From positions 26,611 through 90,610 of the forward strand of contig JAFAZH010000016.1 in assembly GCA_019239895.1 (NCBI GenBank): a stretch of 64,000 bases of DNA, written 5' to 3'. This DNA comes from Abditibacteriaceae bacterium (GTDB lineage: Bacteria > Armatimonadota > Abditibacteriia > Abditibacteriales > Abditibacteriaceae). A model generated the notes under the pieces. That model made no database searches and was not told the DNA's origin. It saw nothing but the letters and a program-made list of their open reading frames with translations. Position numbers and translations under genes: made by a program. This document shows positions 9,165 to 64,000 of this stretch, one piece after another (position 1 is the first letter of the stretch; every line of letters begins with the position of its first letter).

Positions 9165-9312
9165 CTAGAGCCGGGGCTATAAAAGCCCCGGCAGGAGGGC
9201 CTGCGGCCAAGCGTCCTCTGGACGCCTCAAGGATAGAGTTGTAATCAGAGCACCGTCCTTTGGACGGTCGGCTTTAGCCTTCCTGCCGGGGCTATAAAAG
9301 CCCCGGCTCTAG
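9165..9312. repeat. Multi-hairpin intergenic element, copy A (148 bp)
   Basis: The terminal inverted repeats 9165-9196 and 9281-9312 match over 32 bp except in the loop; each end is itself a hairpin (GCCGGGGCT / AGCCCCGGC around ATAAA). Inside are H1 GGCC-TGC-GGCC (9198-9208), H2 GCGTCC-TCT-GGACGC (9211-9225), H3 CCGTCC-TTT-GGACGG (9253-9267) and the palindrome GGCTTTAGCC (9270-9279). H2, H3 and the GGCTTTAGCC box are shared with the elements at 12607 and 17711. It lies between convergent genes and overlaps the 3' end of the HAD gene. Confidence 0.9.
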
Positions 9313-9993
9313 GTGGCAACTTGGGTTGTCTTTGAGGCTCAATAACTGCTCTAGGGGTAACTCAGCCAGGGAAGCAACTTGCAAATCGGCTAGGTCGAAG
9401 GAAAGTTCTCGCGTGATAGCATTGGGCACCGCGACACAGAACAAACCCGCTCGTTTAGCAGCCAGCACCCCATTCGGTGAGTCTTCCAGAGCAATCGCTT
9501 CGGTAGGAGCAACACCCAGAGTTTGCACTGCTGCCAGGTATAAAGCAGGATCAGGCTTGCCACGCTCGACATCATCCGCGCTTTTGATTGTATCGAAGGC
9601 TTGCAGCAAGCCCAGAGGCTCCAGGTGGCGGCTAATCCAACTGTAGGGTGAACTGGAAGCCAGGCCCAACTTTAAGCCCCGTTGCCGGGCCTGACAGATG
9701 TAATCCTCAACCCCCAGCAAAAGCGATTGCGCGTTCATCAGTTCTGCAAAACGGGCACGCCGTTTATCTCGCATTGATAAACGTTCCAGGGCACGACCTA
9801 ACTGCGTTTCCAGATACGCATAATGGTCGAACGTACCATGCGAGGTACCAATGGTTTCGCACCATTTAGCCAGTGGTAACTCGCAATTATGTTCCTGATA
9901 GATTTCTAACCAGGACTGATATTCGGGCGTTTCCGTATCTATCATCAACCCATCAAAATCAAAAATCAGGGCTTTTGTTGCTGTCACTTGCAT
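9292..9993 (-). CDS. HAD-superfamily phosphatase/phosphomutase (beta-PGM-like, class IA)
   Basis: 233 residues with the complete HAD motif set: DFDGLMIDT (nucleophile Asp12, Asp14), Ser113 in LASSSPYS, Lys146 in GKPDP, and Glu170/Asp171 in LEDSPNG. The cap domain lies between motifs I and II (about 20-90), as in beta-phosphoglucomutases and 2-deoxyglucose-6-phosphatases. The physiological substrate is probably a small phosphorylated sugar. The last six codons (LEPGLL) and the stop lie inside repeat element A, whose boundary at 9312 falls exactly between His227 and Leu228, so the native C-terminus seems to have been replaced by repeat sequence without harm to the core fold. It is the last gene of the fdhD-mobA-phosphatase run. 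Confidence 0.9.
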   Translation of the reverse strand: MQVTATKALIFDFDGLMIDTETPEYQSWLEIYQEHNCELPLAKWCETIGTSHGTFDHYAYLETQLGRALERLSMRDKRRARFAELMNAQSLLLGVEDYICQARQRGLKLGLASSSPYSWISRHLEPLGLLQAFDTIKSADDVERGKPDPALYLAAVQTLGVAPTEAIALEDSPNGVLAAKRAGLFCVAVPNAITRELSFDLADLQVASLAELPLEQLLSLKDNPSCHLEPGLL

Positions 9994-10005
9994 AAGGTAC
10001 TATCT

Positions 10006-10647
10006 CTAAGTCCCCGGTAAATTGCGCAACCGCTCATCCAGGTGCGTGCGGTCGGCTAAGATGTGCAGTAATGGCCCGTGCGTGCCAAATTCCACCATGC
10101 TCACGGAACCGACTGGGCAGCCAAGACGAAAGCGAAAGCGCCCAACATCAATACCGAGCAAGCTGCATAACATAATGCGAATCGTTGCTTTATGGGAAAC
10201 CACCAGCACATTACCGTCTTTATGCTGGTTTTGAATTTCTTCAATTACCTGCAAGCTGCGATGGGCAATAGCGACTGCCGGTTCCCCACCCGTTGGCGGA
10301 TACCAGGCCGGGTCAGCCGTCCAGCGCAGGTAATCATCATGGAAATCACGGCTGACCACCTCCACTGTTTTCCCTTCCCACTGGCCATAAGCAATTTCTT
10401 TCAACCCATCACGCAGTTGCATCTCTATTCCCACTGCATGACAAAGCGGCTGTGCTGTCATGACTGCCCGCTGCAACGGACTGGCATAAACCGTCTGCCA
10501 GGAAGTCGCACGATAGGCATGAGCAAAAGCCTGCGCCATTTCCTGACCTTCGGCAGTTAATTCCGGGTTCATACCCGCGCCACAAAATTCATTATCACGG
10601 CTGCATGGTGTTTGTCCGTGGCGCAGAAAATAAAGTTTCAAACTCAT
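10006..10647 (-). CDS. Histidine phosphatase family protein (phosphoglycerate mutase-like)
   Basis: 213 residues. LRHGQT at 8-13 holds the phosphate-accepting His10; Arg60 in SPLQRA, Glu84 in LKEIAYGQWEG and the second His152 in VVSHKATIR complete the branch-1 histidine phosphatase active site. Members include cofactor-dependent phosphoglycerate mutases, CobC-type alpha-ribazole phosphatases and broad-specificity sugar-phosphate phosphatases; the length suits a phosphatase better than a glycolytic mutase. It is 12 bp upstream of the HAD gene and 15 bp downstream of mobA on the same strand, so the four genes are likely cotranscribed. The substrate is not evident. Confidence 0.9.
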   Translation of the reverse strand: MSLKLYFLRHGQTPCSRDNEFCGAGMNPELTAEGQEMAQAFAHAYRATSWQTVYASPLQRAVMTAQPLCHAVGIEMQLRDGLKEIAYGQWEGKTVEVVSRDFHDDYLRWTADPAWYPPTGGEPAVAIAHRSLQVIEEIQNQHKDGNVLVVSHKATIRIMLCSLLGIDVGRFRFRLGCPVGSVSMVEFGTHGPLLHILADRTHLDERLRNLPGT

Positions 10648-10662
10648 CTGCCATATTCTCCA

Positions 10663-11256
10663 TTAGAGATTTTCTACAGTGGTCAAACTCATTTTAACTT
10701 CTTCCGGTGTGTTCCAGTTCTCGAACATGCGCAGTGCCGGATCAAATTGCCGCGCCTGCTCCCCCTCAATGAAGCGCACTTTCAACTGCTTATAAATGCT
10801 GCTCACTGGCCCGACCCGCTCTTGCTGCAAGGTGCTTTCGATGACAGGGAGACAGACGGGGGTATAAACGGCGTGCAATGGCTCAGCGTAGTCTCCTGAA
10901 CAGGGAATGACGGCATCGAAATCTTCCAATTGCGCGCATAAATGGCGAATGTAATCCGCATTCAAGTACGGCATATCACAGGCCACACAAAATGTCGGCT
11001 GCTCCCAGTGTTTTAGCGCAACATGGATACCCGCTAAAGGGCCTTTGCCGGGGTAAATATCAGAAATAGCGTGGGCATGAGCGGCATCAGCGATAGTGGC
11101 ATTGGAAGTGACAACCACCAAGTCTGGAAATATCTGGCGCAGCACCTCCGCAATGTGCGCAATGAGCGGTTGCCCCTTGATGGACAATAATGCTTTATCG
11201 CGCCCCATGCGACGCGAAGCACCTCCAGCAATAATTGTGGCGCAGCGGACATTCAT
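10663..11256 (-). CDS. mobA: Molybdenum cofactor guanylyltransferase MobA
   Basis: 197 residues. The nucleotide-binding signature GGASRRMGRDKALL at 11-24 and metal-binding Asp94 in ACDMPYLN are characteristic of MobA, which transfers GMP from GTP to molybdopterin to make the guanine-dinucleotide cofactor of DMSO-reductase-family enzymes such as formate dehydrogenase. The start overlaps the fdhD stop by 4 bp (11253-11256), a tight coupling that fits a shared role in formate dehydrogenase maturation. No molybdoenzyme gene is in the window. The related CTP-using MocA is an alternative assignment. Confidence 0.88.
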   Translation of the reverse strand: MNVRCATIIAGGASRRMGRDKALLSIKGQPLIAHIAEVLRQIFPDLVVVTSNATIADAAHAHAISDIYPGKGPLAGIHVALKHWEQPTFCVACDMPYLNADYIRHLCAQLEDFDAVIPCSGDYAEPLHAVYTPVCLPVIESTLQQERVGPVSSIYKQLKVRFIEGEQARQFDPALRMFENWNTPEEVKMSLTTVENL

Positions 11257-12119
11257 AAATTCATTTCACGCTGGATGGTATAGATGGTCATGCCAGTATC
11301 CCGGAGAAAACCAATTAATGTTTGATTATTGGCAGCGGCTAATTCGACTCCTAAAGTCGAAGCGGCAGAAACCGAACAGACGATGGGAATGCGCGCCATT
11401 AATGCCTTCTGTGTAATTTCAAAGCTGGCGCGGCCACTGACAAGAAGGGCTACTGGCTCTGGTGCCGCATTCCACGGTAGCCAGCCTTGCTCTAACCCAT
11501 AGCCAATCGCTTTATCGGTGGCATTGTGCCGCCCAATATCTTCATAGAGCGCCAGGCACTCACCCTTAGCATCAAAGATACCTGCGGCGTGCAGCCCACC
11601 CGTCTTTTGAAAAAGTTCCTGCTTCTCTCGCATAGTGTGCGGCATTTGCAACAAGACCTGCGGGTCAATCGCCCGGCTCATCGGCAAAGGGGACACTTTG
11701 GTTTGCAGAGCCTCGATGGAAGCTTTGCCGCAGAGACCGCAGGATGAATTCGAGATAAGATTGCGCTCCCATAAATGTGCAGGTATTTCTTCGCTATCCT
11801 GCAACGTGACATTGACGATGTTCATCAATTCATCATTACGCTCCCGGCACCAGGTGGTGGTTGTGATCTCGATAATGTCTTCATCCGCTTGAATAACGCC
11901 TTCGGTAAAAAGCAGGCCCCGCGCGAGTTCAATGTCATGGCCTGGCGTGCGCATGGTGGCCATATAGCGGCGATTATCAATGCGTATTTCCAATGGTTCT
12001 TCAACCACCAGGAGGTCATCTACTTCCATCAGGTTGCCATTGCGCAGGCGCATGACCTGTCGCTGTTTGGTAGCCTCCTGCCCGGCCAGTTGGGGCCTAT
12101 TTAATTTATTGAATATCAT
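11253..12119 (-). CDS. fdhD: Formate dehydrogenase accessory sulfurtransferase FdhD
   Basis: 288 residues. FdhD transfers sulfur from the cysteine desulfurase IscS to the molybdenum cofactor of formate dehydrogenase. The sulfur-carrying loop SCGLCGKAS contains Cys127 and Cys130, matching the essential CxxC. Other conserved stretches are ELARGLLFTEGVI (64-76) and the later segments GGLHAAGIFD, YEDIGRHNATDKAIG and LLVSGRASFEI. It is the first gene of the - strand operon and is followed by mobA with a 4-bp overlap. It is transcribed divergently from the DUF7009 gene across an 85-bp gap in which no clear promoter was assigned. Confidence 0.95.
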   Translation of the reverse strand: MIFNKLNRPQLAGQEATKQRQVMRLRNGNLMEVDDLLVVEEPLEIRIDNRRYMATMRTPGHDIELARGLLFTEGVIQADEDIIEITTTTWCRERNDELMNIVNVTLQDSEEIPAHLWERNLISNSSCGLCGKASIEALQTKVSPLPMSRAIDPQVLLQMPHTMREKQELFQKTGGLHAAGIFDAKGECLALYEDIGRHNATDKAIGYGLEQGWLPWNAAPEPVALLVSGRASFEITQKALMARIPIVCSVSAASTLGVELAAANNQTLIGFLRDTGMTIYTIQREMNL

Positions 12120-12204
12120 AATGGCTCAAACATTTATACTATCGTTATAGCATCGCAGCAGCGGTGCGGCCTCTTCAAGAGGATACAGGATGTGATATGG
12201 CATA

Positions 12205-12603
12205 ATGAAAGTGCGATGGACACACAATAGCTTGCGCTTACGAATCTCGCCATCGGAATTGGCTCAATTGCAGCAAGGAGAAATTGTCACGGAAACCTTA
12301 ATGCTCTCGCCCGATGGTAGTTGGAGTGCAATTATTCAGCCTGACAGCGCCTTAACTAATCTGATCTTAGCAGCAGGCACCCTGCGTTTTCTCCTGGCCC
12401 CATCGGATTTGGAACGCTTGAGCGTGCCTGAGACGGAAGGAGTTTATTTTACAACAGCCAGTGAACCCCCAGTGCGCTACTTTATTGAAAAGGACTTTCC
12501 CTGCATTCATCCGCGTGCAGACGGGGCGCAAGAACCCGCCACAGAAACTTTTGCTCCACCCGCAGATTTTGCCCAGCGCAAGGAAGGGATTGAAGAAGAT
12601 TGA
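12205..12603 (+). CDS. DUF7009-like conserved hypothetical protein
   Basis: 132 residues, cytoplasmic, with no membrane segment. The opening KVRWTHNSLRLRISPSELAQL and the late motif RYFIEKDFPCIHPR resemble the small DUF7009 family seen in Bacteroidota and other phyla. That family has no known biochemical function; the resemblance is recalled, not searched. It is transcribed divergently from fdhD, so a loose connection to formate dehydrogenase maturation or stress is conceivable but unsupported. Its stop codon is 3 bp before repeat element B. Confidence 0.65.
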   Translation: MKVRWTHNSLRLRISPSELAQLQQGEIVTETLMLSPDGSWSAIIQPDSALTNLILAAGTLRFLLAPSDLERLSVPETEGVYFTTASEPPVRYFIEKDFPCIHPRADGAQEPATETFAPPADFAQRKEGIEED

Positions 12604-12606
12604 AGC

Positions 12607-12757
12607 CGGGCATTGAAATACCCGGCGGGGAGGCAACTATCGTTGCCAAGCGTCCTGCCGGACGCCAAAGGCTAGGAGCTACAAGGTTAGAGGAGTAGTG
12701 AGAGCCGTCCGTGAGGACGGTTGGCTTTAGCCTCCCCGCCGGGTATTTCAATGCCCG
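12607..12757. repeat. Multi-hairpin intergenic element, copy B (151 bp)
   Basis: Perfect 27-bp terminal inverted repeats at 12607-12633 and 12731-12757. Internal hairpins are H1 GGCAAC-TATC-GTTGCC (12632-12647), H2 GCGTCC-TGCC-GGACGC (12650-12665), H3 CCGTCC-GTGA-GGACGG (12705-12720) and GGCTTTAGCC (12723-12732). The terminal repeats are almost identical to those of copy C at 17711, and the H2, H3 and GGCTTTAGCC boxes match copy A. It fills the space between the DUF7009 gene and the epimerase gene. Confidence 0.92.
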
Positions 12758-12781
12758 ACCACCCAAACAGGAGAATCGTTT

Positions 12782-13654
12782 ATGTCTACCAATTACATTC
12801 GCTACAATGACGGCAGCAGTAACCCACCACGCCTGCGTGTGGGGCATTCGCTCTGGTCACTGATCAAGCTGCCGATGAATGCCGAGACGGAATGGACACT
12901 GGATGAAAAGTTTAGTCGCGTCAAAGAAGCTGGTTTTGAAGCAGTAGAGTGCTGGTTGGATGACAGTAACGAGCAAGAGGTCAAAGCGGCTCTGGATCGT
13001 CACGGCTTGCGTTTGGTGCTGGGGCATCGGCCTTTTAAGCTGGAAGATACGAGGGCTACGGTCGAGCGTGCGGTGCGGTTGGGGGCTGACTTTATCTTTG
13101 CGCAACCCGCAAATGCCTATGCGCCGCTGGAAACTGTCGTGGACATTATCCGTGATGGCCTCAGTCTGGCTCACGACAGGGGTATTCCGATGTTTGTGGA
13201 AGTTCACCGTAACAATTTTACGGAGAATATCCCACAAACGATAGAACTGATTGAAAAGGTTCCTGACATTCGTTTTACCGGGGACTTATCGCACTTCGTG
13301 GTGGTAGGCGAGTTCTACGGTTGGCCCGATGAGGGTGCGGCTAATCGCATGATGCCGATTCTAGAGCGCACTTCGCACCTGCATGGGCGCATTTCTAATG
13401 GGGAGGCGGTGCAAGTGGATGTGGGCGATGGCAGCGGCCAAACCGCGCAGTTCTTCGTGGAGTTGTGGTCTATTGCCATGCGCCACTGGCTCCAAGGCGC
13501 TGGCCCCGGCGACGTGTTCCCTTTCACCAGCGAATTAGGCCCACCTCGCTATGCCATTACCTTACCCGATGGCAGCGAATTTAGTGATCGCTGGGAGCAA
13601 AGTCTGGTCATGAAGCGGCTGGCCGAACAAGCCTGGGAGAAGGCACAAAGTTGA
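12782..13654 (+). CDS. Sugar phosphate isomerase/epimerase (xylose-isomerase-like TIM barrel)
   Basis: 290 residues forming an AP-endonuclease-2/xylose-isomerase-type TIM barrel. Likely divalent-metal ligands are spaced as in the family: Glu140 (FVEVHRNN), Asp168/His171 (TGDLSHF), His199/His201 (SHLHGR) and Glu251 (FTSELGPP). Such enzymes interconvert keto- and aldo-sugars, epimerise or dehydrate inositols, or cleave AP sites; no residue separates these options here. GGAG precedes the ATG. The gene sits between two structured repeats (ending 12757 and starting 13660) and is probably monocistronic. Confidence 0.85.
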   Translation: MSTNYIRYNDGSSNPPRLRVGHSLWSLIKLPMNAETEWTLDEKFSRVKEAGFEAVECWLDDSNEQEVKAALDRHGLRLVLGHRPFKLEDTRATVERAVRLGADFIFAQPANAYAPLETVVDIIRDGLSLAHDRGIPMFVEVHRNNFTENIPQTIELIEKVPDIRFTGDLSHFVVVGEFYGWPDEGAANRMMPILERTSHLHGRISNGEAVQVDVGDGSGQTAQFFVELWSIAMRHWLQGAGPGDVFPFTSELGPPRYAITLPDGSEFSDRWEQSLVMKRLAEQAWEKAQS

Positions 13655-13659
13655 ATTAG

Positions 13660-13781
13660 AACCACGAATGGACACGAGTAAATGCGAATGATGCTGGATA
13701 CAAGATGCTGGATGCTCGATTTTCTATCCTCGATCTTCTATCCTCAAAACAATTCGCGTTTATTCGTGTCCATTCGTGGTT
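13660..13781. repeat. Inverted-repeat element H (122 bp)
   Basis: Arms 13660-13689 and 13752-13781 are 30 bp long with two mismatches (AACCACGAATGGACACGA at the outer end). The loop holds the direct repeat ATGCTGGAT-ACAAG-ATGCTGGAT (13691-13713) and two copies of TTCTATCCTC. The 24-bp stretch 13691-13714 recurs exactly, in reverse orientation, at 25861-25884. The element ends 8 bp before the TTG start of the channel gene. Confidence 0.85.
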
Positions 13782-13789
13782 AAATTTTC

Positions 13790-14917
13790 TTGAGGGAGCA
13801 GGTTATTAGCGCGTTCTTTACGTTGATTGAAGTCATCATTGGGGCGTGGGCCGTTGGGGTTGCGCTCTTTGACGTTTTCCAGTCTATCGTCGTGCCGCGT
13901 ATGACGGCGCGAAGCTTCCGCATTTCGCCGCTGCTGGTGCGCAACCTATGGGCTTTGTGGCGACGGCTGGGGCAGCAGATGGCAATGGGAGAAAAACAAG
14001 AAGACTTCCTGGGGTCTTTCGCACCGCTGGCCCTGGTGTTTCTCATCGCAGCGTGGGTTACGACTTTAATTTTTGGCTATGGGCTGCTCTTGTACGCGCT
14101 GAAGTCGCAAATTAGACCATCACCTGACAATTTAGCAACAGCTTTTTATCTGGCGGGCACATCACTCCTCACCATAGGCTTTGGCGACTTAGTGGCAGTG
14201 GGCACTCTTGCCCGTTTTGTGCTACTCACGGCAGCGGCTTCCGGCCTGGCAGTCGTGGCACTGGGCATTTCCTTTATGTTCACACTGCATGGCTCATTTC
14301 AAAAGCGCGAGGTGCAGGTATTAACTCTCGACTCACGGGCAGGCACCCCACCATCGGGCGTAACGATGCTGGAAACTTTTTGCAAATATGACATGATGGA
14401 TAGCCTGCCCGCTACTTTCGCGGCCTGGGAAGTCTGGTCAGCAGAAATTCTGGAAAGTCACCGTGCCTTCCCCTTGCTTTATTATTTTCGCTCCTCTCAT
14501 GATAGCGAGTCGTGGGTCGGCTCGCTGGGTGCAGTCTTAGATGCCGCCACCCTCGTGCTCACCACCATTGAAGCTGGCCCGAAAGGTGCCGCTAAAATGA
14601 TGTATGGGTTGGGCAGCCATGCGGTGCTCGACTTAGCGCATTTTCTGAACCTCAAGCATGATAATGAGCCAGGAGTTGAACGTCTAGAATTTGAGCTGGC
14701 TCGGCAGCGATTGGCGCGTGCTGGCTATAAAGTGAGTGACGATGAAGAGTCATGGCAGGAGTTCCAGAAGCTGCGTGGGGTCTATGCCGCTCCGCTCAAT
14801 GCAATGGCTCGCCACTTTATCATTCCGCCCTCTCAATGGATTGGAGACCGTTCCAGTGTCGCCCACCTACACCAGCACGCCAAGCAAATTCATCAAGAAC
14901 AAGTTAAAGCCGCTTAA
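13790..14917 (+). CDS. Two-pore-loop-type potassium channel family membrane protein
   Basis: 375 residues. Membrane helices at about 5-33, 74-104 and 135-160 flank a pore loop containing TIGFGD (128-133), a variant of the TVGYGD potassium-selectivity filter. A cytoplasmic domain of about 210 residues follows, without a recognisable RCK nucleotide-binding motif. The start is a TTG at 13790 with a weak GAGGGAG upstream; an in-frame TAA at 13781-13783 belongs to the edge of repeat element H, so no earlier start is possible and another TTG at 13823 is the alternative. A role in K+ flux or membrane-potential control is inferred from the filter. Confidence 0.8.
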   Translation: MREQVISAFFTLIEVIIGAWAVGVALFDVFQSIVVPRMTARSFRISPLLVRNLWALWRRLGQQMAMGEKQEDFLGSFAPLALVFLIAAWVTTLIFGYGLLLYALKSQIRPSPDNLATAFYLAGTSLLTIGFGDLVAVGTLARFVLLTAAASGLAVVALGISFMFTLHGSFQKREVQVLTLDSRAGTPPSGVTMLETFCKYDMMDSLPATFAAWEVWSAEILESHRAFPLLYYFRSSHDSESWVGSLGAVLDAATLVLTTIEAGPKGAAKMMYGLGSHAVLDLAHFLNLKHDNEPGVERLEFELARQRLARAGYKVSDDEESWQEFQKLRGVYAAPLNAMARHFIIPPSQWIGDRSSVAHLHQHAKQIHQEQVKAA

Positions 14918-14956
14918 ACAGCATTCCGATTTAACCTCAGCACTTTCAGTTGTAAT

Positions 14957-15589
14957 CTACTCGCCCTTCATCTCCTGCCATTCCTCATAGCTCATACGCG
15001 GCATCTGGAACAGGTCGGTGGTGCGAGCATACCAGCCTGCGCCGTGCATCCGCCCGATGGCGTGCAATCGCTCGGTATTTACATAGAGCTTTTCAACATC
15101 TATCAGATCATCGCGGATGTGGAAATGCAGCACTTCACCGATGACCAGGCGATTGCGGCCAATCTCTAAAGTCGTGTACTCGCGGCATTCAAAGTTGATG
15201 GGCGATTCGGCCAGGCGAGGCGGCTTGACACCCACGGAAGCCACGGTCGTAAAGCCCGCAGCGGCCACCTCACTGGTGCCATGCGGAAAATCCACCGCGC
15301 AAATGTTCATCTGCTCGGCCATTGATTCATCCACGATATTGACGACATATTCTCCCGTCTGGCGGATGTTTTGCGCTGTGTCTTTTGGAATGTCGGGGTC
15401 ACGGTCGCCAATGTTAATCACCAAGAGCGGTGGGTCGCTGCCCATCGCGTTGAAGAAGCTAAAAGGGGCCGCATTAAGCTGACCATCGGCTCGCATGGAA
15501 GTCACCAGAGCAATGGGGCGCGGCACCACTGTGCTGACCAGTAGTTTGTAGCGGTCGCGTGGCGAGATGGTGCTAAAGTCAATGTGCAT
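14957..15589 (-). CDS. Flavin reductase family protein (FMN-binding split barrel)
   Basis: 210 residues. The sequence begins with the flavin-reductase-like pattern YKLLVSTVVPRPIALVTS, followed by LNAAPFSFFNAMGSDPPLL and GEYVVNIV, which form the FMN-binding split barrel. These proteins reduce FMN with NAD(P)H for a partner monooxygenase or act as flavin-dependent reductases. The start overlaps the end of the esterase gene by 11 bp, and the gene closes the DUF2721-dioxygenase-esterase-reductase run. In that context reduction of quinones, or supply of reduced flavin, is a reasonable inference. Confidence 0.88.
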   Translation of the reverse strand: MHIDFSTISPRDRYKLLVSTVVPRPIALVTSMRADGQLNAAPFSFFNAMGSDPPLLVINIGDRDPDIPKDTAQNIRQTGEYVVNIVDESMAEQMNICAVDFPHGTSEVAAAGFTTVASVGVKPPRLAESPINFECREYTTLEIGRNRLVIGEVLHFHIRDDLIDVEKLYVNTERLHAIGRMHGAGWYARTTDLFQMPRMSYEEWQEMKGE

Positions 15590-16226
15590 AAGAATTTCCC
15601 GTAAGTTGAGAGGTCAACCAGGCAGCGGCAGCCGCCACTTCCGGTTGACTCAATTGATGGCCACCGGGCTGCCATTGCACAGTCACTCCCGCCCCACATT
15701 CTTTTAAGAGGGCTGCTAAACGCTCGGTTTCCGCTTGCGGCACCATTGGGTCGAAGCGGCCTGCGCCGATAAACACTGACGTGCCAGAAAGGTCGGGCAA
15801 TGGCTCTGGCACCAGGGGCACCATCGGATGAAAAAGCGCCGCGCCAGACAATACACCGGGCCGCAACAGCATCACACTGGCCGCAATGTTCGCCCCATTG
15901 GAATAACCGACCGCAATCACCCGTGCCACATCGAATCCATAGCTCTGCGCAGCAGCGGCCACAAATTCTGCCAGTTCATGGGTGCGCAGCTTCAAATCTT
16001 CCATATCGAAGACGCCTTCAGCCAGACGGCGAAAGAAGCGTGGCATTCCGTTTTCTGACACTTTACCACGCGGGCTGAGCAAGGCCGCCCCCGGAGCGAG
16101 AGCTTGCCCCAAAGGAACTAAATCGGCTTCACTGCCTCCGGTGCCATGCAGCAAGAGCAAAGTCGGCGCATCACTGCTTTGTGCCGGGACAAATTCATGA
16201 ATGAATCCTAAAGTATCCGTTGCCAT
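15579..16226 (-). CDS. Alpha/beta-hydrolase carboxylesterase, MhqD-like
   Basis: About 215 residues from ATG 16226. This start has AAGGAGAAAG upstream and is preferred over a GTG at 16253 that would overlap the dioxygenase stop. Signature elements are LLHGTGG, nucleophile GYSNG (Ser109), Asp159 in AGRFDPMVP and His190 in PGGHQLS, the layout of the phospholipase/carboxylesterase family. In Bacillus subtilis the homologous MhqD is encoded with a ring-cleaving dioxygenase (MhqE) and induced by quinones under MhqR. The same pairing occurs here, which suggests a role in disposal of electrophilic aromatics. Confidence 0.85.
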   Translation of the reverse strand: MATDTLGFIHEFVPAQSSDAPTLLLLHGTGGSEADLVPLGQALAPGAALLSPRGKVSENGMPRFFRRLAEGVFDMEDLKLRTHELAEFVAAAAQSYGFDVARVIAVGYSNGANIAASVMLLRPGVLSGAALFHPMVPLVPEPLPDLSGTSVFIGAGRFDPMVPQAETERLAALLKECGAGVTVQWQPGGHQLSQPEVAAAAAWLTSQLTGNSYAH

Positions 16227-16249
16227 ATTTTCTCTTTCTCCTTGCTCGT

Positions 16250-17215
16250 TCACGCACTGCTTGAGGTGTTTATTGCATGGGGCAAACGCAGCGGGGGCAA
16301 AGCGCCTTCGATGCGCGAGCGATAGCTTTCCAACCAGGGCGGCAGCTTGAGATGGGTGCCCAATGTTTCAGGCGACTCATCCCAGGTAAAGCCCGGCGCA
16401 TCCGTGGCAATTTCAAAGAGTATGCCGCCCGGCTCACGGTAATAAATGGAATGAAAATACTGGCGATCCATCACCGGGCTGACATTTAAGCCCCGCCGCA
16501 CCAGCTCAGCACGCCAGGCTAATTGCGCGGCATCATCTGCCGCACGCCACGCGATGTGATGCACCGTGCCCGCGCCCATCAAGCCATGCGGCGCACCCGG
16601 TTGACAGACCACGTCCACCGTCGCTCCTGGCCCACCGTCACCAGCCGCATACCGAAAGCGGTTGCCCTCTTCCTGGAGCAAATGCAAGCCCATTGTTTCG
16701 GTCAACAACTTAGCTGTGCGCTCATAGCCTTCTTCACTCAACGTCGCACTATGAAAACCACGAATGGCGTGCTCCCCCGGCACTGGCCCGCCCGACCAGG
16801 CCAGTCGCTCATCGGGCGTGGCTGCGCCAATAAGTTCCAGCCATAATCCATCACCATCAGTAAAGCTCAACACGGGTTCCCCAAAGCGTGTGCTGGCATC
16901 GGTTTGCACCCCATGCTCTTTTAAGCGATCCTGCCAGTAGGAAAATGAACTTTGCGGAACGGAAAAGGAAGTCACACTCACCTGGCTGGTGCCAATGCGC
17001 CCGCGTTGCGCTCCAGGCCACGGAAAGAAAGTGAGAACGCTGCCAGGTTGTCCCAGAGCATCGCCATAATAGAAATGATAGGAACCGGGATCATCAAAGT
17101 TAATGGTTATCTTCACCAGCCGCAAGCCCAGCACACCCGCATAAAAATCAAGATTCTGCTGGGGATCACTGGCAATGGCAGTAACATGGTGAATTCCCGC
17201 AATCGTTTTGGTCAT
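16250..17215 (-). CDS. Ring-cleaving dioxygenase, VOC superfamily (MhqE/MhqO-like)
   Basis: 321 residues made of two vicinal-oxygen-chelate halves. The N-terminal half starts GIHHVTAIASDPQQNLDFYAG, giving the first metal-binding histidine near residue 9-10. The C-terminal half contains GTVHHIAWRA and, near the end, GILFEIATDAPGF, supplying the second His and the Glu ligand. Hydroquinone-type extradiol dioxygenases of this group open aromatic rings or act as quinone-detoxifying enzymes. AGAGGTGG precedes the start. It begins 18 bp after the DUF2721 gene and lies directly upstream of the MhqD-like esterase. Confidence 0.88.
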   Translation of the reverse strand: MTKTIAGIHHVTAIASDPQQNLDFYAGVLGLRLVKITINFDDPGSYHFYYGDALGQPGSVLTFFPWPGAQRGRIGTSQVSVTSFSVPQSSFSYWQDRLKEHGVQTDASTRFGEPVLSFTDGDGLWLELIGAATPDERLAWSGGPVPGEHAIRGFHSATLSEEGYERTAKLLTETMGLHLLQEEGNRFRYAAGDGGPGATVDVVCQPGAPHGLMGAGTVHHIAWRAADDAAQLAWRAELVRRGLNVSPVMDRQYFHSIYYREPGGILFEIATDAPGFTWDESPETLGTHLKLPPWLESYRSRIEGALPPLRLPHAINTSSSA

Positions 17216-17233
17216 AACTTTCCACCTCTTGGC

Positions 17234-17704
17234 TTATGTGTTTTTTGACACACAAATATCAATCAGTTCTTCTGTGACTGTGATACGTGATAAGTGCATC
17301 TCATACAGTTCCGTCACAACGGCAACAAACATTAACAATAAACCAACGACTAAGCTAATGGCACCCATAACACCAATGCGCTCGGCCCGCTCTGACAATA
17401 TGACTGAGATAACAGTAGTCAAAAAGCAAAGCTGCGCCAGGGAGAGAGCAAAAATGGATAACCACATGAAGTGCAGGCGACGTTGAAAAATCAACAATTG
17501 CACTTTGAGGTTGCTGCGCCGGGCTTCATCTGTGGCCGCGTTGCGATATTCCATCGCCAGGCTGCGCATTTGATTCGAGATGCTGATATGTTTCGAGGTG
17601 TAGCCCGACAGCAAAATCGCCACTGCCGAGATCAGCACCACCGGAGCGACAGCGGCACTGATCAGGCTCATTAATCCCGAAGATGGCGCATGAGTCATTG
17701 GCAT
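17234..17704 (-). CDS. DUF2721 family membrane protein
   Basis: 156 residues with three predicted membrane helices (about 13-33, 75-98, 104-128) separated by a charged amphipathic loop containing SNQMRSLAMEYRNA. The pattern matches DUF2721, a small family of bacterial integral membrane proteins with no known function. It is the first gene of the run ending with the flavin reductase; only 18 bp separate it from the dioxygenase gene. Its start is 6 bp from repeat element C, so any promoter or leader must lie in or beyond that element. Confidence 0.8.
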   Translation of the reverse strand: MPMTHAPSSGLMSLISAAVAPVVLISAVAILLSGYTSKHISISNQMRSLAMEYRNAATDEARRSNLKVQLLIFQRRLHFMWLSIFALSLAQLCFLTTVISVILSERAERIGVMGAISLVVGLLLMFVAVVTELYEMHLSRITVTEELIDICVSKNT

Positions 17705-17710
17705 TTTGTT

Positions 17711-17858
17711 CCGGGCATTGAAATACCCGGCGGGAAGGCGGTCAAGCCGCCAAGCGTCCTGCCGGACGCCACAAAGCTACAGTTTTAAACTCTTGTTGAG
17801 TGTGCCGTCCGAGAGGACGGTTGGCTTTAGCCTTCCTGCCGGGTATTTCAATGCCCGG
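17711..17858. repeat. Multi-hairpin intergenic element, copy C (148 bp)
   Basis: 28-bp terminal inverted repeats at 17711-17738 and 17831-17858 with one mismatch. Internal hairpins are H1 GGCGG-TCAAG-CCGCC (17737-17751), H2 GCGTCC-TGCC-GGACGC (17754-17769), H3 CCGTCC-GAGA-GGACGG (17805-17820) and GGCTTTAGCC (17823-17832). The linker between H2 and H3 is unlike that of copies A and B. It sits between YceI and DUF2721 with 5-8 bp to spare on either side. Confidence 0.92.
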
Positions 17859-25704: not shown

Positions 25705-25865
25705 GGATGAAGGCTGACGCAGACCCGCCCCTAAAGGAGCGGGCTGAAGAGCCAAGTCCCCTGAACGGGGCTGGAGAAACCACAGTAGCGCATCTGTAGC
25801 CCGGTTCACCGGGCTTTTACCCTCAGCCCGCTCCTTTAGGGGCGGGTCTGCGTCAGCCTTCATCC
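25705..25865. repeat. Inverted-repeat element D with perfect 43-bp ends (161 bp)
   Basis: Arms 25705-25747 and 25823-25865 are perfectly complementary over 43 bp. Within each arm, GCCCGCTCCTTTAGGGGCGGG folds on itself (in part: GCCC / GGGC around CTAAAGGA). The interior carries a GTCCCC/GGGGC stem near 25756-25771 and the perfect hairpin AGCCCGG-TTCA-CCGGGCT (25798-25815). The layout of long ends plus two internal hairpins parallels copies A to C, though the sequences differ. The right end overlaps a 24-bp sequence shared with element H. Confidence 0.92.
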
Positions 25866-29530: not shown

Positions 29531-29697
29531 ACCCTATCCCCAACCCTTCCCCTTGCCAAGGGGAAGGGAGCGAGACTATCTCCGTCGGGTGATGGACTAG
29601 ATTAAACCGTGGGATGCCATCCTGTAGCATGGATGCTGTCCCGACGGTAGGCCAACGCTCCCTTCCCCTTACCAAGGGGAAGGGTTGGGGATAGGGT
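29531..29697. repeat. Inverted-repeat element F (167 bp)
   Basis: Arms 29531-29572 and 29656-29697 are 42 bp long with two mismatches in the loop of a second-order hairpin (CCTTCCCCTT / AAGGGGAAGG). An inner stem CCGTCGGG (29582-29589) pairs with CCCGACGG (29640-29647). The sequence family CCCTATCCCCAACCCTTCCCC is a common dispersed repeat in Armatimonadota and Chloroflexota, as recalled. It sits between two convergent genes and touches the stop codon at 29698. Confidence 0.88.
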
Positions 29698-41308: not shown

Positions 41309-41335
41309 AACCCTCACCTCCATCTTCAGTCTAGT

Positions 41336-41454
41336 ATTTCAACACAAAGGGCACAAAGAACAGAAAGGGGCAAACATGATAGAGAAATGGTGCCTCCCTG
41401 CGTTGAATCAACTTTGTGTCCTTTGTGAATTCTTTGTGCCCTTTGTGTTGAAAT
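41336..41454. repeat. Inverted-repeat element I (119 bp)
   Basis: Perfect 25-bp arms at 41336-41360 and 41430-41454 (outer sequence ATTTCAACACAAAGGGCAC). The loop contains further CTTTGTG/CACAAAG-type partial repeats. It fills almost all the space between two divergent genes, whose starts are at 41308/41323 and 41462, so it must contain or replace their promoters. Confidence 0.88.
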
Positions 41455-41461
41455 AAAAATC

Positions 41462-63743: not shown

Positions 63744-63835
63744 TCAAATCTCCAAAAGTAAAGTGAGTGATAGCGGTTAAACCCTACCGCATGACACTAA
63801 GAGCGACTAACAAATAAAGTGGTGAGGGGAAAGAG

Positions 63836-63954
63836 GAGTTTGTCATGCTGAGCGGAGCGAAGCATCTGGTAAGAGTGTCCATAGAGCAATGGTCAAACCT
63901 ACGACTCTTTAACTCCCAGAGGAGATGCTTCGCTGCACTCGGAATGACAAACTC
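63836..63954. repeat. Inverted-repeat element G (119 bp)
   Basis: Arms 63836-63867 and 63923-63954 match at 28 of 32 positions (inner AGCGAAGCATCT perfect). Weaker homology continues outward to the window edge. GTCATGCTGAGCGGAGCGAAG-type sequences are common dispersed repeats. It accounts for much of the 257-bp region upstream of the 63743 start; no other feature is supported there. Confidence 0.8.
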
Positions 63955-64000
63955 TTCGGCTTACCTTTTACCTTCTTATTCATTGCGTTAGAGTCGCTTA

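Follow-up and report, generated by a model that had tools for sequence, protein, structure and literature searches.

The multi-hairpin intergenic elements described here, three copies of which (A, B and C) lie in a stretch of 64,000 nucleotides from an Abditibacteriaceae bacterium (phylum Armatimonadota; assembly GCA_019239895.1, contig JAFAZH010000016.1, positions 26,611 to 90,610; hereafter the window), have their closest described counterparts in systems built around Y1 transposases. The subclasses of these enzymes are named here after a 2018 survey of TnpA_Y1, whose first author we take to be Quentin. In the REPIN/RAYT system, which pairs inverted doublets of repetitive extragenic palindromic (REP) sequences with REP-associated transposases, two inverted palindromic units enclose a variable spacer, lie outside genes in many copies, and share their genome with a Y1 transposase gene flanked by such units (Bertels & Rainey 2011, PMC3116915), and REPs are reported to lie mainly behind coding regions (PMC3733652). 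TIRtrons consist of a Y1 transposase, the TIRYT, between long terminal inverted repeats (TIRs), some of them self-complementary, with families of dispersed TIRs (PMC3733652, 2013), and 20 of the 26 described TIRYTs belong to subclass 2.1, with C-terminal domains that resemble helix-turn-helix (HTH) domains (PMC6006769). Subclass 1.2, as delimited in the survey (PMC6006769, 2018), comprises enzymes of low copy number and about 140–150 amino acids with the motifs DH[IV]H, WQ, and Y---Q--HH, is found mostly in Cyanobacteria and Bacteroidetes, and is listed there without REPs and generally without IS200-type ends. The IS200/IS605 elements, finally, have subterminal hairpins without TIRs, and the PATEs of Haloquadratum are described as short gene-less derivatives that share their ends with such elements, also lack TIRs, and leave no target duplication (PMC3119063).

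Each of the elements described here is composed, in order, of an outer arm, a variable hairpin H1, the hairpin GCGTCC/GGACGC (H2), a linker, the hairpin CCGTCC/GGACGG (H3), the palindrome GGCTTTAGCC (H4), and a second outer arm, the arms being themselves hairpins of one of three types (T1 to T3). A preliminary description of the window had proposed that these are either mobile substrates of a transposase acting in trans, possibly of RAYT/IS200 type, or RNA or DNA elements with a role of their own. The former is favored by the 75 copies found in this genome and by matching Y1 genes inside an element on contig C12 and between elements on contig C29. We consider it probable that A, B, and C are non-autonomous mini-transposons mobilized in trans by the IS200-type (Y1, HUH) transposase encoded inside the C12 element. 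We infer mobility of the family from the cognate Y1 families, from near-identical copies at unrelated sites, and from the lack of a 5–9-bp target duplication, and the family is most simply explained as REPIN-like, non-autonomous, and mobilized in trans by IS200-type Y1 enzymes.

A genome search with the Pfam Y1_Tnp model gave seven matches in six loci, all on contigs other than that of the window, which was not itself separately searched for transposases. On C12 (L086), an intact open reading frame (ORF) for a Y1/HUH protein of 140 amino acids (positions 901–1323) lies within inverted ends of the family element, in a unit of about 0.7 kb. These ends match each other in 67 of 68 bases and correspond to arm, H1, and H2 of the short copies (T2 arm, AGGAAGGCTAAAGCC, and GCGTCC GTT GGACGC), with the gene at exactly the place of the linker. 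A second Y1 gene, 65% identical, lies on C29 (L085) with a complete T1-armed element on either side, and the HUH and Tyr positions are aligned and intact in both of these family-I TnpA proteins. Two more intact Y1 genes, on C36 and at 93 kb on C29, and a frameshifted one on C55 are organized alike and differ in their hairpin sequences; the sixth locus, on C34, is without such ends (inverted-end score 31). The inverted-end scores of the other five loci range from 72 to 131, the highest being that of C12 with its 68-bp ends and single mismatch, whereas the scores of mismatched pairs have their median at 19 and do not exceed 42 (n = 346).

The genome amounts to 6.65 Mb in 60 contigs (completeness 93.7%). 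It contains 82 matches at up to three mismatches to the core pattern GGACGGTTGGCTTTAGCC, against nine for the reversed-pattern control, and 64 matches to the T1 arm pattern, against none. Four of the 81 core matches in the loci read lacked arms and were dropped (L073–L076); with doubles merged, 74 distinct elements in these loci and copy A in the window make up the 75, which include the gene-bearing C12 element, four interrupted copies (L027, L031, L067, and L069), and a divergent one (L072). Seven of the 77 kept matches were not parsed automatically (L027, L031, L040 twice, L067, L069, and L072), leaving 70; the flank tests were run on 67 after double or odd matches had been set aside (L060 minus, L070 twice), and the arm-type count on 68 after two had been set aside, copy A lying outside the 67. 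A covariance model built from 34 clean copies, for a search of the kind that the preliminary description had suggested, found 142 matches in the genome with both strands counted (E at most 1e-3), so that by either measure the copies exceed what chance would supply. Under stricter filters, again counting both strands, the model found matches in five of 60 related genomes (35 in G034, 21 in G018, four in G001, two in G044, and one in G008) and none in the other 55. The exact core pattern occurred in no stretch of either genome_contigs or viral_contigs, where records of this genome itself may be excluded.

The coordinates and part order given earlier for A, B, and C were borne out except that B begins at 12606, one base earlier than reported. 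Terminal inverted repeats are present, as claimed, in B and C; the arms of A are instead direct copies of GCCGGGGCTATAAAAGCCCCGGC because the loop of its right arm is flipped. The gene settings are likewise as described, convergent for A and codirectional for B and C. The parts are the following:

9165..9312, no strand: element A, complete multi-hairpin element between a convergent alpha-L-rhamnosidase gene (+) and HAD-like hydrolase gene (-); covariance-model match C2:35782-35915
9170..9192, +: left arm hairpin of A, GCCGGGGCTATAAAAGCCCCGGC, type T2, the same sequence as the outer arm of the C12 element that carries the transposase gene
9198..9208, +: variable hairpin H1 of A, GGCC TGC GGCC
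9211..9225, +: hairpin H2 of A, GCGTCC/GGACGC
9226..9252, +: variable linker of A; the C12 parent has its transposase gene at the corresponding position
9253..9267, +: hairpin H3 of A, CCGTCC/GGACGG
9270..9279, +: palindrome H4 of A, GGCTTTAGCC
9285..9307, +: right arm of A, loop flipped relative to other copies, a direct repeat of the left arm
12606..12757, no strand: element B, complete, between codirectional genes; covariance-model match C2:39216-39368
12606..12625, +: left arm of B, CCGGGCATTGAAATACCCGG, type T1
12632..12647, +: hairpin H1 of B, GGCAACTATCGTTGCC
12650..12665, +: hairpin H2 of B, GCGTCC/GGACGC
12705..12720, +: hairpin H3 of B, CCGTCC/GGACGG
12723..12732, +: palindrome H4 of B, GGCTTTAGCC
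12739..12757, +: right arm of B, the left arm inverted
17711..17858, no strand: element C, complete, between codirectional minus-strand genes; covariance-model match C2:44321-44468
17711..17730, +: left arm of C, CCGGGCATTGAAATACCCGG, type T1
17737..17751, +: hairpin H1 of C, GGCGGTCAAGCCGCC
17754..17769, +: hairpin H2 of C, GCGTCC/GGACGC
17805..17820, +: hairpin H3 of C, CCGTCC/GGACGG
17823..17832, +: palindrome H4 of C, GGCTTTAGCC
17839..17858, +: right arm of C, the left arm inverted

Folded as single-stranded DNA (ssDNA), the three elements (9168–9312, 12607–12756, and 17711–17858) reach z scores of -9.2, -12.8, and -12.3 against dinucleotide shuffles, with none of 200 shuffles folding as well. 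In the 34-copy alignment, 98.1% of the pair cells are standard, a figure that falls to 48.8% or less when the partners are slid by one to three columns; covariation scores 0.205, compared with 0.079 for shuffles. For H1, 23 distinct strings were counted. H2 and H3 are each readable in 70 of the 75 elements, H2 with a closing pair of G-C in 65, C-G in four, and A-C in one, and H3 with C-G in 59, G-C in five, a T-G wobble in two, and a mismatch in four; where these pairs flip between G-C and C-G, both sides are altered. Three copies have both H2 and H3 swapped, as if the inner part had been inverted, and in three others only one of the two differs. Since the closing pairs of the two are preserved separately, H2 and H3 are retained as local hairpins, and complete pairing of one with the other in a fold-back, as predicted for B and C, is disfavored. 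Of the 62 copies that could be classified, 54 have two arms of one type (after shuffling, 22.5 on average and at most 39), the remaining eight, with mixed arms, therefore being mosaics. Because its two arms are inverted and co-vary, the element is strand-symmetric, like a REPIN.

The four intact proteins match Pfam Y1_Tnp at 83–92 bits (cut-off 23), their sole Pfam domain above cut-off, and the NCBIfam model for IS200/IS605 transposases (NF033573) at 69.7–77.2 bits (cut-off 55; the C12 protein at 77), and miss the RAYT model with at most 35 bits against a cut-off of 80. The C29 protein has in addition a sub-threshold match to RepB (15 bits against 30). Their relatives in the PDB include the ISHp608 transposase, and the nearest named TnpA relative, at 54% identity, comes from a metagenome-assembled genome (MAG) of an uncultured Chthonomonas sp. 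(Armatimonadota), a relationship that by itself makes this phylum probable for the window. By motif comparison, the C12 (DHIH/WQ/YVRNQKQHH) and C36 (DHIH/WQ/YIQHQKEHH) enzymes fit TnpA_Y1 subclass 1.2 fully, while the two C29 enzymes deviate from it in one H (YVKHQKQQH and, at 93 kb, YIKHQKQRH). Inverted-end scores of at least 40 were obtained for 16 of 19 1.2-like loci in this genome and its relatives and for 29 of 68 in genome_contigs, sampled as the best 80 of 561 loci, 79 of them with enough flank for the test (controls for this sample: 99% at 29, maximum 48, n = 600). Within these best 80 of 561 loci, with phylum labels assigned by hand, such scores were reached by 11 of 13 loci in Cyanobacteria, four of six in Armatimonadota, four of 13 in Chloroflexota, and 11 of 39 in Bacteroidota, the last mostly as single palindromes rather than multi-hairpin ends. 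The loci L078 and L081 of this genome, each with one deviating H, were binned as 1.1-like (deviating-H loci score 100 and 92), and two genome_contigs loci and three own or related loci were left unbinned.

Repeats cognate to a Y1 enzyme also occur outside family I. The end pattern of the C36 element was found at four further places in this genome and that of the 93-kb element on C29 in eight further matches, with none in the controls, and among the nine such loci read are short elements of several hairpins, H2-like ones included, that have a spacer and no gene. Families II and III of this genome thus have their own short copies alongside Y1 genes. For one Y1 element of G018, the inner hairpin has 57 matches in that genome, the element's own two ends included, and none in controls or in two other genomes. 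The end sequence of a 1.2-like Y1 element matches 31, 22, 17, 2, and 46 times (118 in all; controls 0) in five Nostoc/Cylindrospermum genomes, where some matches form same-direction arrays; the counts are of end sequences. In G044, judged by eye, a short element (L094) has hairpins and GAATCAAGGAT in common with the ends of the local Y1 gene (L103).

In its combination of parts the family would function in the manner of both REPIN/RAYT pairs and TIRtrons, and is a canonical member of neither. It shares with REPINs (PMC3116915) the inverted pair of palindromic units around a variable spacer, the extragenic location, the high copy number, and the Y1 gene flanked by units in the same genome, yet each half is built of three hairpins and not of a single short REP, the C12 gene lies within the spacer itself, and the enzymes have Y---Q--HH in place of Y---NP. 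Identity with GTAG-tagged REPs was rejected, as the foot lacks an invariant GT[AG]G tag, which stands near an end in only nine of the 67 copies (control mean 4.1, maximum 10). The Y1 gene between long, partly self-complementary TIRs and the dispersed end families recall TIRtrons (PMC3733652), whereas the four proteins lack any extension of the subclass 2.1 type and the motif GGGGWSAS is absent from all ten end stretches (five own loci, both strands). In their motifs, length, and low copy number the enzymes agree with subclass 1.2; unlike what PMC6006769 describes for it, they come with structured inverted ends and cognate repeats, also beyond Cyanobacteria and Bacteroidetes. A Y1 TnpA of IS200 type, short gene-less derivatives that share its ends, and no target duplication are features held in common with IS200/IS605 and PATEs (PMC3119063), from which the long inverted ends, 68 bp on C12, set the family apart. 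What is new is the link of 1.2-like enzymes to structured inverted repeats cognate to them, the presence of three hairpins in each half, and the coexistence of gene-bearing and gene-less versions in one genome; a literature survey of titles and abstract openings, most subscription papers lying beyond reach, found none that ties subclass 1.2 or Armatimonadota to such repeats.

Several observations on the flanks bear on movement. Identity within the most similar pairs of copies reaches 97.7%, 96.4%, and 95.0%, and over their 60-bp flanks it is no higher than chance would give (0.18–0.27). Four other loci contain stretches similar to the left flank of L028; this similarity is confined to one side and is uninformative. 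None of the 67 copies has a target duplication at k = 5–9, and those at k = 3–4 are at the level of chance or shuffles. A weak consensus, A/G-A-G before the left arm and C-T-C/T after the right, is confounded by stop codons. Flanks that are inversely complementary over a run of at least four occur in 12 of 67 copies (shuffle mean 2.0, maximum 7), which may or may not reflect insertion into pre-existing palindromes, and in L032, L054, L062, L039, L024, and L048 unique, copy-specific flanks extend the inverted repeat by 6 to at least 8 bp, in L032 by about 14 bp.

The placement of the copies at gene ends, counted with mechanically called ORFs of at least 150 codons, could also be expected if they served as structured 3' ends that protect or terminate messages and had spread only secondarily, an explanation we regard as improbable. 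Of 134 element sides, 81 face a gene end, 38 of the sides lie 0–12 bp behind a stop codon, and 10 stops fall inside an arm; 23 copies are in a convergent setting, 35 one-sided, and nine without such ORFs. Of the 23 convergent gaps, 15 have the closer stop no more than 6 bp away, where uniform placement gives 9.6 (P 0.0002), an excess that weakens at a threshold of 200 codons to nine of 13 against 6.8 (P 0.07). Such a position is shared with REPs, however, which are likewise reported mostly behind coding regions (PMC3733652), and the same architecture houses a transposase gene. The strong folds fit an RNA as well, and departures from standard pairs comprise 35 G-U and 16 A-C cells when all column pairs are counted; this test leans on one doubtful pair, 106/123, the outermost of H3, which is outside the CCGTCC/GGACGG stem and contributes 18 G-U cells. 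Without it the departures number 17 and 14, so that selection acting on one RNA strand is not clearly indicated. No Rfam family matches the window at the gathering threshold, and an RNA or DNA element with its own role, the other proposal of the preliminary description, has found little support. T-runs behind the arms, in 5 and 4 of 67 copies against 2.6 expected, only slightly exceed background, which argues against ordinary terminators as well.

Two further explanations start from the element ends and the mosaic copies. Termini of equal type in inverted orientation, in a genome that has a DDE_3 transposase gene, would suit DDE-type miniature inverted-repeat transposable elements (MITEs), whose inverted ends are recognized as double-stranded DNA. 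This seems very improbable indeed, as target duplications of 3–9 bp do not exceed chance, the gene enclosed by the element ends is Y1 and not DDE, and the DDE_3 gene adjoins a broken arm as an intruder instead of lying between element ends. The family could also be immobile by now, its copies shuffled and homogenized by recombination and fold-back gene conversion and its tnpA domesticated for another role. To this we give little credence: the eight mosaic copies, the apparent inversions of the inner part (L039, L063, and L064), and the small number of family-I tnpA genes, two against 75 elements, are in its favor, whereas copies 95–98% identical in unrelated flanks and the intact HUH and Tyr positions in both family-I proteins speak against it.

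A number of results weigh against the trans-mobilized mini-transposon. Neither an empty site with joined flanks across the junctions, in the loci read, nor any insertion or excision event was seen, and none of the 60 relatives belongs to the same genus. No transposase with T3 arms was seen among the seven Y1 matches in the genome, whose assembly is 93.7% complete. Cognate pairing of enzyme and repeat is not universal: by eye, the model matches bear no resemblance to local Y1 ends in G034 (two loci), G001 (one), or G008 (one). Further pair types in the 34-copy alignment (25, shuffled 25.9) show no excess, a first pass of the covariance model scored 150 of 2649 candidates, and the covariation counts are inflated by common descent: since much of the signal consists of three inherited arm types, the events are fewer than the cells. 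Class 2 (Y---NP) loci have inverted ends as well, in four of five cases, so that such ends are not special to subclass 1.2.

If the elements move as proposed, a strand that becomes single, for example at a replication fork, would allow the arms and inner hairpins to fold, and the Y1 enzyme would recognize the hairpins, cut by means of its tyrosine, and rejoin the element elsewhere as ssDNA; these steps are taken over from the IS200/IS605 enzymes. Insertion would often take place just past stop codons, where it would do little harm. The short copies may be derived from gene-bearing elements by loss of the gene, or be maintained by them. With less than even confidence, we propose further that the subclass-1.2 enzymes constitute a third Y1 transposition system, whose unit would be a strand-symmetric fold-back of two inverted sets of three hairpins that can be processed on either strand. 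This genome would then display every stage of a series that starts with an insertion sequence (C12), continues with a gene enclosed by complete units (C29), and ends in 74 REPIN-like units that carry no gene, and REPINs would have arisen from autonomous elements several times in parallel, with different hairpins. The origin of REPs and REPINs and the substrates of many uncharacterized Y1 enzymes are open questions in the field, and enzymes that fit a subclass listed as repeat-less are now tied to cognate repeats. With both versions of the element and the cognate repeats at hand in one genome, the matching of enzyme and substrate is directly testable with short oligonucleotides. The family also accounts for strongly folded intergenic sequences that could pass for structured RNAs.

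At the three sites in the window, the TAG stop (9292–9294, minus strand) of the HAD-hydrolase ORF (9292–9993) lies inside the right arm of A, B begins 2 bp past the TGA stop of a DUF7009 ORF (12205–12603), and C lies between minus-strand genes, first that of a YceI-like protein, with its stop 7 bp away, and then that of a DUF2721 protein. Besides 9292–9294, an arm supplies the stop of a neighboring ORF in L017, L019, L039, L041, L043, L051, L053, L056, L063, and L077, as TGA out of ATTGAAATA or TAA or TAG out of CTATAAAAG; the element would therefore encode the last residues of host proteins.

Other insertions and repeats are associated with the copies. The DDE_3 transposase gene on C18 (L069:2572-3498), presumably IS630-like, lies beside the arm that is interrupted in the C18 copy, and near contig ends the broken arms of L027 and L031 run into this same foreign end, as if this insertion sequence targeted the arm loop. 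Nine copies, judged by eye, contain one more long hairpin, for example AGCCCACAGCACAGCAT...ATGCTGTGCTGTGGGCACCCAACC, always at the same position of an arm (L003, L007, L047, L048, L052, L056, L066, L070, and L071). The linkers of L009, L011, L014, L017, L024, L029, L034, L065, and others contain another repeat, TAGGGGCATGATTTATCGTGCCC or sequences close to it, which occurs in both orientations.

The window harbors other structured repeats. At 25705–25865 lies another inverted multi-hairpin element, with the arm AGCCCGCCCCTAAAGGAGCGGGCT and its relatives and inner hairpins with TGAA/TTCA loops, which has 43 matches in the genome on both strands (controls 0), many as inverted pairs about 92–110 bp apart. 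The near-palindrome CCCTTCCCCTTGCCAAGGGGAAGGG forms an inverted pair at 29531–29697, 167 bp overall, and has 47 matches (controls 0), with most places counted on both strands and often paired about 115–135 bp apart. Further inverted-repeat pairs were seen at 13660–13781 (CACGAATGGACACGA...), 41335–41455 (CACAAAGGGCACAAAGAA...), and 63833–63957 (TCATGCTGAGCGGAGCGAAGC...).

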